Source of the DNA: Auricularia sp. M13
Taxonomy: Eukaryota > Basidiomycota > Agaricomycetes > Auriculariales > Auriculariaceae
Direction: 5' to 3'
Assembly (NCBI GenBank): GCA_037042915.1
Contig: CM073199.1
Coordinates: 3,720,001-3,784,000, forward strand
DNA: 64,000 nucleotides
The translations under genes and the position numbers were made by a program. Positions 56,303 through 63,320 of this stretch are shown one piece after another (position 1 is the stretch's first letter; every line of letters begins with the position of its first letter). The notes beneath the pieces were generated by a model that saw nothing but the letters and a program-made list of their open reading frames with translations, was not told the DNA's origin and searched no databases.

Positions 56303-59300
56303 TCACTTGGAGAACTCAACGACGGCATACCGCCCGCTCACGCGCCACCGCGCGTCCTCCTCCTCGGCCGCGCGCGCGCGGTCCGCGGGCACGCCGACGA
56401 TCACGTCCGCCTTGTTCGTGCGCAGCACGAGCAGCGGGAACGCGCCGCGCAGGGGACCTTGCGCAAAGCGGCGGGCGTCAGCGAGGTGCGGAATGTGGCA
56501 ATGAAGTGAGGGTGCGAGACAGCGATTTCTGGCGGGGATGACTCGGAGCGGGTCAGACACGCACCGAGCGCTTCCTCGAACGGCGTGTCGACTGGCCACT
56601 TGACGTCGCCCGTCAGCCTCGAGCGAGCATTAGCATCAGCGCGCCTCATCTCATGCAGCTAGTAGAACACGTACTTGCGGTAACTGCAAACCCATCACTT
56701 ACTCAGCACATATCCCCCCGCAAAAGCAAGAAAAAAAAACGCACTTCAAATCGCCCTTAAACACCACCAACCCGCTCTGACTCCCCAGCTCCTCCCGCAG
56801 TCTCTCGGGCATATAATGGTACGCAGCCCAATGCGTCCACCAGTCGTCCATCCTGAGTTCAAAGCGGCCCTCCTCGACGTGCTTGCTCCAGCGCGCGACG
56901 AGCGGCGCGAGGTGCTCGTTGGTCTGCTCCGGGGCGAGGGAGGAGAAGAAGGTCGAGGGCGAGGAGGAGAGCGTGTCGAGTGTCCAGGCAAAGTCGGCGG
57001 GCGTCACGTCCGAGACGAACCAGGGGAAGGATTTCGGGCTGTGCGCATGGGTGCGCGTTAGCGGACGGTGTGAGATGTAAACGCGAGCGAGGAGTGGACG
57101 GCGTGAGATGTGAACGCGAGTGAGGGGTGGACGGCGTTCGCGGTTAGCGGGTGAGAGGCGAGGGTGGGGAGCGCGCAGATGGCAGGCGCTGAACGGCTAA
57201 GCGGGACGATGGACGAGCAGTGCGCCGACGCAACGGGTTGGTGAACAGTGAGTAAATGCGGCGAACGAGGAGTGAAGGGTGGAGGAGCTGTGAACTGTGG
57301 TCCACACAGGGCAGCGTGCGGGACTTCCGCAAAGCAGACGGCGGGCGGTGTGTACGACGCAGCGGGTTGCACATGGACAGGCTGACGAGGAATGACGGAG
57401 GAGAAGCCAGCACGGGTGCGCTTAGCGCGCGAGTTGGCGGTCGGAAGGATGTGGGTGCGTGCGATCGACGAAGAGAGATTTTGGCGCGCGCGCGGGATGA
57501 GGGAGTACAAGGAAGGGTGTCCCGGGAGCGTGCGAGGAGAGACGAGAGCGAGTGAAGCGAGGGTGCGCGTCGCAGGAAATGGCGGATCGATGGTGAGACG
57601 ACGTACTGGAAGACGACCTTGGACACGAACGGCGTATACGTGAGCAAGAAGTCCGCGAATATGAAATCCGTGAAGAGCTGCCAAACAACACATCAGCGTC
57701 CACTCTGAGTCTCACGCACCCGCCAGAAGAGTTTTACGCACCTCGAATCCCGCTGCATCCCGCAAAAAAGCGATATGTCAGCACAAACAAGCGATACGTC
57801 AGCACGAAAAAAGCGATACGTCAGCACAAAAAAAAAAGAAGCCGAGTTTGAGAAACAGAGAAAACGCACAATTATCCAGCACGATATCAACCCGCCCGTC
57901 CTTCAGCGAGCTGAGCTGCGCCCACGCGGCGTCGGCGTCGTCGCGCAGGATGAACGCCGCGCGCGCGGCCTGCGCGTCCTTCTCGACCGTCTGCAGCTTC
58001 TGGATGTCCTCGTGCGTCAGGTTGGTCAGCAGGCTTAGGTCCTGCGTCGGGAAAGGGGAGTTAGTATCTGGCGCTGAGGGAAGTGTTGGGAGCATAGGGA
58101 GGAGAAATCTGGACCGCAGGGAGGCGGTATTATGGTCTTTGCGGGTGCGACAAAAGTAAACGTGGCGCCGAGAATATTCGCGAGCGCGTGCGCGCGGAGC
58201 AGTATCCAGTTGACCACGCACACGCACAGCGACGACTCCTAGAAAGGGGCTGACCGTCGCAGGAATGCTCTCACGCTGCGGCCCCGCACACCCATGATAC
58301 CGCGACTGAGAGCGGTTCTGCTCTCCTGATGCTGCTGAGACCAAAGATCATTCGCACGCGGGAGAAAGAATCTCTGAAGACGCAACAGTTTTACCCGTCG
58401 GGGCCAGCGCGGTAGCCAGACGCCAGCAGCGACTGTTGGCCCGCCCATCGTGGAACCCGCCCGCTCGGTTGGCACAAACAATCGTCCCCGCGAGTCGACC
58501 GTGCAGCAACAGTTTGCGCGAAAAGACGGACGCTCCGTCGCATCACAAGCTAGCGGACGTTCTGCCCGCGTGTTCGTGCGCGCAATTGCCCACGACTGCA
58601 GGGCACAAGAGGCATCTCGCGCGCTAGGCAGCATCCGTCTCGCGTGCCGACGTTGCGCTCATCCGGCACAATGCGCGGACAGCCAGGCGCATCAATTGCT
58701 CGCAGGCCAGAGGGAGAGCGAACACGGTTTGCGATACATCTGCCGCGGCAACCCAGCGGGCGGGACTCCTTCTGAATCCCCAGCCCCGACAGATCGATCC
58801 GTTCGCATCCACACCGGCCGATGCAGAAAAACCGTCTGCACGGGGACGAGCGGCGACCGGTAGCCGCGCACAGCAGCTCCTCACTCACGGCGACTAGCGC
58901 GCGCGGGGAAAGGGCGCCGGAATGACAGCGGGCACTGGTCCGACGAGCGACCGTTCACCCGACGTGCTGCCTTCTTCGGCGACTATTTTGTCGCCACGGC
59001 ACAGGTAGGAATGGACATGAACGCGGCCGACCGATCTGCGCGCGGTGAAGGCGATGCGCGGAGACGGTCGACTGCGGCACGCGGGCGACCGTCCGTGCGT
59101 GGCGATGCGGGCGCGCGTCTACCCTGCGTGCAGTACGCGGGACGTCGTCTGCACACGGAATTCGAGCGACGTCTGCGCGCAGGATACGGGTGACGTCTGC
59201 GCGCAGGATGCGGGCGACGTCTGCGCGCAGGATGCGGGCGACCGTCTGCGCGCAGTATGTTGTCGGCCGTCTGCGCGCTGGATGCGGGCCACCGTCTGCG

Positions 59301-61731
59301 GGCAACAGTCTGCAAGCTGCCAGCGTGACGCAGGCGACCGGGTGCGAGCAGGATACGTGCGACCGTCTGCGGACAGTATGCGAGCGACCGTCTACACGCA
59401 GGTTGCGGGCGACCGTCTGCGCGCAGTATGCGGGCGCCCGTCTGCGCGCAGAGCGCAGGACCGTCTGCAAGCTGCAAGCGTGACGCAGACGACCGGGTGC
59501 GCGCGCGGATTCGAGCGACCGTCTGCGGGCGCAGTTCGAGCGACATTATGAGCGCAGGACGCAGGCGAGCGTCTGGGAGCACGATGCGGGGGGCCGTCTG
59601 CAAGCTGCAAGCGCGACGCAGCGCGCAGGATGCGGGCGATCGTCTGGGAGCAGGATGCGGGCGACCGTCTGCGAGCAGGATGCGGGCGGCCCTCTGCGCA
59701 CAGAACTCGAGCGACCGTCTGCGAGCAGGATACGGGCGACGTCTGGGAGCAGGATGCGGGCGGCTGTCTGAGCGCAGGATGCGGGTGACGGCTGGGAGCA
59801 GGACGTATGGGAGCAGGATGCGGGCGATAGTCTGCGAACAGGATGCGGGCGGCTGTCTGCGCGCAGGTTGCAGGCGAGATCTGCGAGCAGAATTCGAGAG
59901 ACCGTCTGGGAGCAGGATGCAGGCGACGGTCTGCGCGTAGGATGCGAGCGACCATCTGCGAGCAGGATGCGGGCGCCGTCTGCGCGCAGTCTGCGGGCGG
60001 CCGTCTGCGCGCACAACGTAGGCGAGCGCCTAGCCGGAGCACGCGGGCGACCGTCTACGCGCAGGATACGGTGACGTCTGCGCGCAGTATACGGGCGACC
60101 GTCTGCACATGGAATCCGAGCGACCGTCTGCGCACATAAATTTTTCGGGACCGTCTGCGCACAGTATACGGGCGCCCGTCTGTGTAGCATGCGAGCGACC
60201 GTCTGCGCGCAGAATTCGAGAGACCGTCTGAGCGCAGGAGCCGGGCGAGCCACTGAACACGGGATTCGAGCGACGGTCTGCGTAGAGGATACGCGGGGCC
60301 ATCTGCGCGCACATGACGCCGGCGAGCGTCTGCGCGCCGAACACGGGATGCGAGCGTCTACGCGCCGAACACGGGATGCAGGTGACCATGCGCGCGACCG
60401 TCGAAGCTCGGAACACGGCCGTTCAACGCTCGGAACACGGCCGTTCGGCGCTCGGAAAACGACCGTCGAACGCGGGCGGCCGCCTATAGGACGTAGGCGA
60501 CCGAGCACGGCGCGCGTTTGGTTACGAAAAGGACGGCGCGCAGCGGTGCGGTGCGGACGGGATGGGGTGCGCAGCGACCCGGTCGGGCGTGCGGGCGGAA
60601 CGGCAGACAGGAAAGGGAGGAGGACTCGAGGGAGAAGAGCACGAAATACGACCGGGAGGGATAGAGGAGGCGGGACGTACGGTGGCATTTCCCCAGAGGC
60701 AGATCTGGAGCATCTCCTTGAAGAGGATCTCGAGTTTCGCGCGGTCGGCGAGCAGCGCGGCGCGCTCGAGCGACAGCTCGTGCATCGTGTTGGCGAGCTC
60801 TGCGCCGGCGAGCATGCGGTGCGTGCGGCGGGCAGAAATGTCGTGTGCGTGCGGCGGGCAGAAATGTTGTGAGCGTGTGACGTCAGAAAGCGCAGGAGAA
60901 GGACGCACTGTACACCGCAGCACCGCTCGACCTGAACGCGTCGACCTTCTGCGCGCGGAACGGGTCGTACGTCGTCCAGTACTTTGTCTGTGCGAACCAG
61001 CCCCGGAACACGCGGTACCTGCGCCCACCGCTATTGTATCAGCCCCGCACTGCACCTTGCACTTTGGATGACGCACAAGTAGCATCTGCGAATCAGAGTT
61101 CAGTATGAGTATGCAGGAAAAGGAGGAAAGGCGGGGAAGGAGGGGTGAAGAGGACGCACTCTGCAAAGAGCCAGGGCGCGGTGAACCACGTGTTCCGGCC
61201 GGCCGCTTCGAGCTGCGCGAGGCGCGCGTTGTACGCCGATGCGAGGGGCGCGCCGTCGTCTGTCGGGATCGGGCTGCGCATTCATCAGCATCCATTTCGT
61301 CATCAGCGCTGCAAGGAGAGGAAGGGAGAGGGCAGACAGGACGCACTCCAAAGCGCGATCGCGCGCCATCTCGTACTTGAGCTTGCCCGCGCGCGCGATG
61401 ACGGCCTTGCCCTCTTCCACCTTGGCTTTCTTCTCCTCCTCGTCCAGCTCTTCTTCCTCCTCTTCCTCTTGCTCTTCATCGGGGGAGGATGGGGAAGAGG
61501 AGAGGGTGGCGTGGTTGTCGCGGTAGACGCGGTCGATGAGGCCCGTGATGATGATCGGCCACCGTTTCAGCACCGTTTCGTATGAAAAGCTACGGCGCTG
61601 CGTATGAGTGGGGTGTGGTGTGGATGGGGTGGGGTGGGGTGGGGTCGAGCAGACCTGGATTTGTCGGTCGGGTCGCTTGGTGGGTAGGGCGGTGTCCAGT
61701 CTAGGTTGCTCGCTGTCGGTTCGGATGCCAT
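56303..61731 (-). CDS. DUF89/ARMT1-type protein (damage-control phosphatase family), intact copy B
   Basis: The DUF89 family comprises metal-dependent phosphatases acting on damaged sugar phosphates (yeast YMR027W) and the reported human carboxyl methyltransferase ARMT1. Thirteen exons: 61731-61655, 61589-61347, 61273-61160, 61085-61077, 61018-60909, 60799-60681, 58041-57882 approximately, 57752-57742, 57677-57607, 57038-56745, 56683-56675, 56617-56565 and 56457-56303. Family blocks in order: SFSYETVLKRWPIIITGLID; RNTWFTAPWLFAECYLYRVF; FAQTKYWTTYDPFRAQK; MHELSLERAALLADRAKLEI with CLWGNAT; DLSLLTNLTHEDIQKLQTVE; VDIVLDNSGFE (metal site Asp/Asn); FADFLLTYTPFVSKVVFHPK; PWFVSDVTPADF; VVFKGDLNYRKLTGDVKWPV; and LRTNKADVIVG. 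Exons 4, 8 and 11 are only 9, 11 and 9 nt, yet each is needed for the conserved text (ECYLYR, NSGFE, LNYRK). Intron 6 is 2,639 bp with a 25 bp array. No stop or frameshift found. Cytosolic, no signal peptide. Confidence 0.85.
57770..57836 (-). repeat. Three 21-22 bp repeats before the exon 8 acceptor of ARMT1 copy B
   Basis: Read along the gene, GTGCTGACGTATCGCTTTTT is repeated three times. Each unit contains CTGAC/CTGACA, a good branch-point sequence, and a pyrimidine run, just upstream of the 11 nt exon 8. Confidence 0.7.
59040..60430 (-). repeat. 25 bp tandem array in intron 6 of ARMT1 copy B
   Basis: About 50-55 units. The plus strand reads GCGCAGGATGCGGGCGACCG plus TCTGC, 25 bp; read along the gene this is the same unit and orientation as the arrays at 43190 and 47005. 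Several units carry an inserted block of about 30 bp with TGCAAGCTGCAAGCGTGACG (near 59310, 59465 and 59600). Confidence 0.85.
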
Positions 61732-62005
61732 CGTCGACGGTAGACGAGAATGGAGAAGAGATAAAACGGATCGGATCGGGCCGGTGCCGCGTGCTAGACT
61801 CCGTTTTTCCCGAGTTTGAATTTTGAGGCGCCTGTCGCTGAGGCTGCCGCTGTGCATACGTACTATACAGACGACGATGCGCTTGCTTTACCTACAACGA
61901 CGACGATGTTGGCTACAGCGCGGCGCGTTGTGTGACGTACAACACCCGCCTGCCCGTCGCTCCGCCCTCAAATAGCTCTGCCCGACGGCTAGAGCAAGAC
62001 GAACG
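61732..62005. promoter_or_regulatory. Shared 274 bp upstream region of ARMT1 copy B and the F-box-like gene
   Basis: The two genes are read in opposite directions from here. A pair of ACGACGATG sites lies at 61872-61880 and 61897-61906; no TATA box is clear. Confidence 0.4.
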
Positions 62006-62717
62006 ATGTTCACGCCCTTCGCCAACCTCCCGCTCGAGCTCGTCCTCCTCATCATCGAATACGCCGGCCGGTCCGCCGTGCGCCACGCTCCTGGCTGGGT
62101 CGCCTCGACGTTGCGCGTGAACAGCACGTTCCACCGCGCGCTCTTGCCGATACTCTACCGCACCGTCTTCATCACACCGTCCAACGTTCACACCCTCTCT
62201 CTCCTCCCCAGCGCACAACGAAGGAATTTTGCTATGACGCGGCGCCTCGTCTTAGGGGTGGACTGCCGCGCTGCGATGCAGCTCACGGGGATGTTCGGCC
62301 ATCTGAGCGCTGTGGCGTGCGATATCCCGTCATTCTTTGCCCTCTGCCATGACGCGGCGTTTAAGCCGGATGTGGTGGTGCTGACCAGCCGGTGTGAGGT
62401 ACGACGAGGCGTTCGTTCCCGGTACGCTGGTGCTGACGAGCCGGTGTGAGGTGCGCGATGTGTTCGGCTGGCTTGTGCGTAGTGCGCAGTTTCGGTGTGT
62501 GCGGACTTTGGGTGTGGTGCATCCGTTGATGGGGGTGGATGAGGTGTGGGATGAGGGGGGATGGGAGGGTGTGAGGGTGAAGAGGATTGTGCTGAATTGC
62601 GCGGATGCGGGATTTGAGGGGCAGTTGTTGGCTGCGATGCCTGTGTTGGAGAGGGTGGAGTTCTTCTCGGAGCGCACAGACTACGGCGACGCGTTGATTG
62701 ACTGGCTTGAATCTTGA
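62006..62717 (+). CDS. F-box-like protein with one duplication-born intron
   Basis: ATG at 62006 (MFTPFANLPLELVLLIIEYA). F-box-like block LPLELVLLIIEYAGRSAVRH then GWVASTLRVNSTFHRALLPI. Exons 62006-62398 and 62451-62717; the intron 62399-62450 starts GTACGA, has a GCTGAC branch site and ends GTGTGAG. The unspliced message would shift frame (52 bp), giving a stop 17 codons on, while splicing joins VVVLTSRCE to VRDVFGWLVRSAQ in frame and runs to DALIDWLES at 62717. The product, about 219 residues, is short for an F-box protein and seems to lack long repeats. It is divergent from ARMT1 copy B, with 274 bp between the start codons. Target unknown. Confidence 0.7.
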
Positions 62718-63197
62718 CCTTTATAATATGTATCCCCCCAGCCGGGGCCTGTCATGGTCCGCATTTTCTCTTGCTAACTTTTGATCTATTGCACGCTGAG
62801 TCCGTTTAACTTTGCTGCTTTCGTTTCGTATTAAAGTGGCGCCTTGGACTCTGAGGCTGCATCGTCCGTGAGCGTGAATGAAAATTCGGGCAGGCTGAGC
62901 AGCAGTATCTTAAAAGTATGAGTCATGACGTCGACTGCAACGGCGCTCAGAGTCACTATCTGCGCGATCCTCGCCAGCACCAGTGACCAATCGACTATAT
63001 AATCCCACGACTTTTTGACTTGACATTGGAACGATTATCTTCCATCGTAAAGTCTGCAAAGGAGGCTACTTTTTGACGTGCTCTTGTCTCGGCTCCCCGA
63101 CATCTACTCTACTCTACTCTGCACTCTCGCGATCGGCATCTGCTACCTGCCATTTGAGTCTCACACGATTACTGTACGTTTATTGCCTCTCATCGCT

Positions 63198-63320
63198 GCG
63201 CGTCGACGGCCTGCGCTGCGCACATCGCGTCGACAGCCTGCACGGCGCACGTCGCGTCGACAGCCTGCGCTGCGCACGTCACCCATCGCGTCGACAGTTT
63301 GCGTTGCGCGTCGACAGCGT
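63198..63320 (+). repeat. 27 bp tandem repeat
   Basis: About four to five units of CGCGTCGACAGCCTGCGCTG plus CGCACGT, 27 bp, the last ones degenerate. Each holds GTCGAC. Confidence 0.75.

Follow-up and report, generated by a model that had tools for sequence, protein, structure and literature searches.

How can a gene that has acquired a second copy of a 52-bp piece of its own coding sequence still encode its protein? A locus of Auricularia sp. M13 raises this question, in a 64,000-nt stretch of the genome (contig C7, 3720001-3784000; hereafter the window), where the original prediction took the second copy to be a new spliceosomal intron with its source still lying beside it. The source of most recent intron gains is unrecognisable, and hence the origin of spliceosomal introns is debated (PMC4974935).

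Bases 62347-62398 and 62399-62450, which had been described as similar over their whole length, are identical at 38 of 52 positions without gaps. At period 52 the identity is highest (40/52) with units starting at 62349, 62351 or 62352, and in the first of these registers the CC/GT mismatch at the boundary drawn earlier vanishes. The two units are as follows:

62349..62400, + strand: copy 1 of the 52-bp tandem duplication in its best register, with AGGT at its end (40/52 identical to 62401-62452)
62401..62452, + strand: copy 2 of the 52-bp tandem duplication, with AGGT at its end (from the comparison of period-52 registers)

GAGGT is found at 62396-62400 and again at 62448-62452, that is, AG|GT flanks both ends of the proposed intron, and since the unit 62349-62400 closes on AGGT, a single tandem duplication produces both without further change, just as had been proposed. 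The mismatches are unevenly spread within this unit, with 10 in the first 26 bases and 2 in the second 26 (Fisher p = 0.019). A chance origin of the repeat is excluded, as the best 26-base match has 24 identities, against at most 21 in 300 codon shuffles of 62006-62717 at any period from 27 to 150. When a 22-base core was searched for in the genome with up to 3 mismatches, both copies were recovered with 0 mismatches together with two places with 3 mismatches, while the reversed core, used as a control in the same search, gave 4 matches; no further copy of the duplicated sequence was found in the 52.1 Mb of the 14-contig genome, and 62300-62500 as a query found one place. The 52-bp repeat is absent from the output of Tandem Repeats Finder at score 40. 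The duplication is as certain as the assembly itself. An in-frame 51-bp peptide repeat combined with a sequencing indel is unlikely, since both halves of the repeat hold one 52-bp register; the profile of the gene family introduced below neither requires nor rules out an in-frame repeat (100.0 bits).

The effect on the reading frame is that stated in the original prediction. The frame opened by the ATG at 62006 passes through copy 1 and, if the transcript is unspliced, ends inside copy 2 at the TGA 62447-62449 with a product of 147 residues, and a second frame spans copy 2 and reaches the TGA ending at 62717. The parts of the gene on either side of the proposed intron, both in phase 0, are:

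62006..62398, + strand: open frame 1, the proposed exon 1, 131 codons, coding for the N-terminal region of an F-box-like family protein and closing with copy 1 (98.5 bits on the family profile; coding score +14.9)
62451..62717, + strand: open frame 2, the proposed exon 2, 88 codons plus TGA (codon-position bias p = 0.0015; -0.6 bits alone on the family profile)

Removal of the 52 bases fuses the two frames into a 219-residue protein, and the frame is preserved only when about one copy is taken out. Gene prediction on both strands chose a spurious long minus-strand chain over the locus, which we did not take as gene evidence. Upstream of the gene lies a divergent neighbour (window 60522-61891, minus strand), the downstream part of which heads toward a large array of diverged 25-bp units (window 59124-60473, ~1.2 kb) that ends ~1.5 kb upstream of the gene under study; the neighbour's frame 60522-61475 (minus strand) has a sub-threshold match to PF01937 (ARMT1-like phosphatase domain; E 0.043). 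Similar 25-bp arrays are present in the window at 43.4-44.8 kb and 47.0-47.5 kb.

The gene belongs to a family of F-box-like genes with other members in the same genome, the counts of which are lower bounds. We fetched 21 paralogue loci and used 18 of them; one locus was dropped because its frame is broken (L013) and two because no frame was recognised by motif (L042 and L044), though both are elsewhere listed as open. On the profile of these 18 paralogues the 98.5 bits of exon 1 fall within the range of 57.6-131.1 bits obtained by the N-terminal 131 residues of left-out paralogues. The Pfam model PF12937 (F-box-like) gives 12.3 bits, under its curated cut-off of 24.3, and 18.5 bits with the N-terminal 60 residues of one paralogue (L036), while the joined 219-residue protein has no match in Pfam or NCBIfam. 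In all 18 of the paralogues used (paralogues, not orthologues, from the 21 fetched), the site of the duplication is uninterrupted and lies in one open frame, which suggests that the unduplicated, intronless state is probably the ancestral one and the extra 52 bp derived. Copy 1 was rejected as the extra copy, because the family profile favours it (101.6 bits with copy 1 kept vs 97.6 with copy 2 kept); this better fit of ~4 bits gives moderate support to copy 2 as the copy released from constraint. Contig C7 carries seven family places in a stretch of ~75 kb close to its left end (51121-125328), and F-box-like genes occur near both ends of this contig, the gene in the window being ~95 kb from the right end. 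Two places on contig C11 (119482-120240 and 2335292-2336050) have equal scores and frame lengths and are possibly a recent duplicate pair.

Whether copy 2 looks like an intron of this genome was judged with a basic gene model for which the window plus 200 kb of contig C1 served as training sequence; it yielded 369 self-trained introns, some of them surely false. These introns have a median length of 56 nt, are mostly of 46-61 nt and most commonly of 51, 53, 49 or 52 nt (52 nt in 20/369); their donors are mostly of the GTGCGT or GTACGT type, and their acceptors are CAG (229), TAG (86), AAG (33) or GAG (21), with GAG found in only 1/92 of a strict set. The branch-site motif CTRAY, present in 128/368 introns, peaks 10-24 nt from the intron ends, where a control motif shows no peak. 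The candidate and its branch-site motif are as follows:

62399..62450, + strand: proposed 52-nt intron, GTACGA...TGTGAG, with GAG|GT at both ends
62433..62437, + strand: branch-site motif CTGAC in copy 2, its A (62436) being the 15th base from the intron end, within the CTRAY peak

The donor GAG|GTACGA stands at the 49.5 percentile of the self-trained introns and above 95% of the GTs of the window, and CTGAC beats 98% of these introns on a branch matrix. The acceptor TGTGAG reaches no more than the 0.3 percentile and exceeds just 17% of the AGs of the window, the pyrimidine content near it is at the 17th percentile of introns, and the G+C content of the candidate is 65%, vs an intron mean of 54% (SD 9) and 57% for the window. 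The splice signals originally listed are thus borne out in part: length, donor and branch site match predicted introns, and the acceptor is poor. When 366 predicted introns were compared with their flanks without gaps (732 comparisons), none reached the 73% identity of the candidate, the runners-up being one at 62% inside a tandem array and the next at 50%. No other convincing duplication-born intron was found among the 366, as the sole high one, at ~43.4 kb of the window, sits in a 25-bp tandem array.

These features suggest the following course of events. A 52-bp coding piece ending in AGGT underwent tandem duplication in a member of the family that, judging from the paralogues, probably had no intron at this place; the first AGGT would then have become the donor (GAG|GTACGA) and the second the acceptor (GAG|GT), and a CTGAC that the coding sequence already contained lies at the branch-site distance of the introns predicted for this genome. 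Excision of copy 2 by the spliceosome would restore the old reading frame and presumably the old protein, and copy 2 may have drifted afterwards, as the closer fit of copy 1 to the family faintly suggests. That copy 2 is spliced out in exactly this way, as an intron at 62399-62450, is the single likeliest reading of the locus, though we give it somewhat less than an even chance. Slightly more tentative still is the broader proposal of a precise intron birth beside its source, in which donor, branch site and acceptor would all have come from one coding segment, in a member of an otherwise uninterrupted family that lies near the chromosome end.

The strongest competitor, which we consider rather unlikely, is that the duplication did no more than disrupt the gene, of which a 147-residue fragment or a pseudogene would be left in repeat-rich surroundings close to a chromosome end. 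The number 52 is not divisible by three, and the frame stops within copy 2; the locus is ~95 kb from the contig end and ~1.5 kb from the 1.2-kb tandem array; and damaged family members do exist. In one of them (L013 1390-2349; contig C11, ~794.6-795.6 kb) the frame breaks just past the FRPRE motif, near the position equivalent to that of the duplication, and later parts are in other frames, and one further family place has an in-frame TGA. The 3' half of the gene also fits a broken gene, being weakly coding and leaving the gene shorter than most of its family. On its own, 62451-62717 does not match the family profile (-0.6 bits), whereas the corresponding residues of the 18 left-out paralogues score 6.8-50.0 bits. 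Placed behind exon 1, it raises the score by 3.1 bits, a gain reached by 2.0% of 1000 shuffles; when its first 30 residues were spared from shuffling, the observed score was reached in 3.6% of 500, so that much of this small gain is owed to these 30 residues, and exon 2 appears only marginally family-like. Its coding score of -0.104 per codon is nonetheless the best of the six frames, and is below that of the matching stretch in all 12 paralogues scored (lowest -0.037, one paralogue having few codons there). Exon 2 is not as long as the C-terminal part in most paralogues and stops before a W..G motif seen by eye in most of them, and the paralogues' C-terminal part was not found in the six frames of 62301-63300. 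The end of the gene has diverged and become shorter, and is either still in use or decaying.

Against a broken gene stand the intron signals themselves, the codon-position bias of exon 2 given above, although the 3' flank also gives p = 0.0165, and the state of the flanking frames, both of which are stop-free though the copies differ at 12/52 positions. When the whole gene was allowed to drift from an identical duplication in 2000 simulations, which cover substitutions and leave indels aside, both frames stayed stop-free in 43% of runs at 0.05 changes per site, in 11% at 0.14 and in 2% at 0.28. The stop-free frames argue with moderate strength that the gene has been constrained since the duplication, an argument that fails if the copies were already differing alleles when joined. 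On balance, a duplication-born intron of some kind is favoured over a broken gene.

Such an intron may also have arisen imprecisely, if the duplication exposed other GT-AG pairs that overlap copy 2 and keep the frame while altering the protein, an outcome that is among those described in a review (PMC3443670) and that we consider improbable here. Two pairs compete with 62399-62450:

62422..62482, + strand: 61 nt, GTACGC...GCGTAG, no good branch site; best without a branch term and with a present/absent term, poor on the branch matrix
62444..62489, + strand: 46 nt, GTGTGA...GCGCAG, no good branch site; from splice scoring with and without a branch term

On donor, acceptor and length, without a branch term, 62422-62482 leads the frame-keeping pairs with 5.5 vs 1.9 for 62399-62450, which is fourth among them and at the 21st percentile of introns. 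On the branch matrix 62399-62450 leads with 8.73 vs -0.67 and -4.55 for the two competitors, and only 0.28% of 3517 random GT-AG pairs of the window score as high, while 75% of introns score no higher; this matrix was trained only on CTRAY-bearing introns and overweights CTRAY. With a term for the mere presence or absence of a branch site, scored with matrices from only the 275 introns found in the C1 stretch, 62422-62482 (9.67) and 62444-62489 (8.58) come first and second of 10 frame-keeping pairs, ahead of 62399-62450 (8.09), a score that 1.5% of 10,001 random pairs reach. The ranking flips with the weight given to the branch term, and the motifs therefore do not settle the exact splice pair. 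Choosing the splice sites by homology failed as well, since the family profile gives the five spliced variants 98.8-102.3 bits, a spread of no more than 3.5 bits, and gives 100.6 bits to the unspliced frame; the 61-nt variant is the highest by 0.7 bits (102.3 vs 101.6). Neither competitor has a good branch site 9-31 nt from its acceptor (5th and 3rd percentile of introns), and 62422-62482 would delete VRDVFGW, a stretch that looks family-like by eye. Of the original claim of a duplication-born intron, then, the tandem copy of an AGGT-bearing exon piece stands, while two overlapping pairs outscore the proposed one under the present/absent branch term.

It is very unlikely that the repeat is an artefact of assembly or haplotype, in which two diverged alleles or the ends of paralogues were merged without removal of a 52-bp overlap; the uneven distribution of differences (10 vs 2 per half) could arise if the copies came from different alleles, but the locus is single in the 14-contig assembly, a second allele was not found, the best other relative shares only 35% protein identity with the gene, and exactly abutting units ending in AGGT are what one duplication predicts. 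An introner-like element was rejected, as no second copy was found in the genome.

Cryptococcus, like Auricularia, is a basidiomycete. The route favoured here, tandem duplication of an AGGT-containing segment, was rightly presented as a known one (PMC3443670; PMC4974935), but its rarity was overstated: 188 intron gains by tandem duplication, with precise and imprecise outcomes, are tabulated from seven kinds of organism including Cryptococcus (PMC3443670). The Rogers model and the vertebrate ATP2A1 case, recounted together with a potato case in PMC4974935, resemble the candidate in the tandem AGGT-bearing exonic unit, in the donor and acceptor drawn from the two AGGT copies, in the branch site pre-existing in the coding sequence and in the restoration of the protein by excision; they differ in that the birth of the ATP2A1 intron was reproduced experimentally in ATP2A2, whereas the present intron is a prediction from sequence and has a weak acceptor. 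Among 62 gains, two fission-yeast introns are reported to derive from tandem exon repeats (PMC3629103). These, in SPOG_01682 and SOCG_00815, are likewise fungal phase-0 introns from non-identical repeats, but with 24-nt multi-copy units and AGGC proto-splice sites instead of a single 52-bp AGGT duplication, and with spliced ESTs, one of them showing a longer excision than the annotated intron (PMC3629103). The potato RdRp intron is also recent, of tandem-duplication origin and recognisable in its source, but its unit spanned an existing intron-exon boundary and 106 RNA-seq reads attest its splicing (PMC4974935), while the Auricularia unit is wholly exonic. Fungal introner-like elements also create new introns in fungi, but are multi-copy (PMC4457414; PMC3443670), unlike the present sequence. 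Among the titles found on intron gain, tandem duplication and basidiomycetes, none announces such a case from a mushroom-like fungus, although titles are no proof of absence.

The mechanism is already accepted with many recorded cases, and the present one adds a single instance even if copy 2 is spliced. If the reading of 62399-62450 as an intron is true, this short duplication, which lies entirely in exon sequence and still has its source next to it, would offer a compact way to test whether coding sequence can provide every splice signal by itself, and the ancestral sequence, readable beside the intron, would be open to testing for its competence in splicing.
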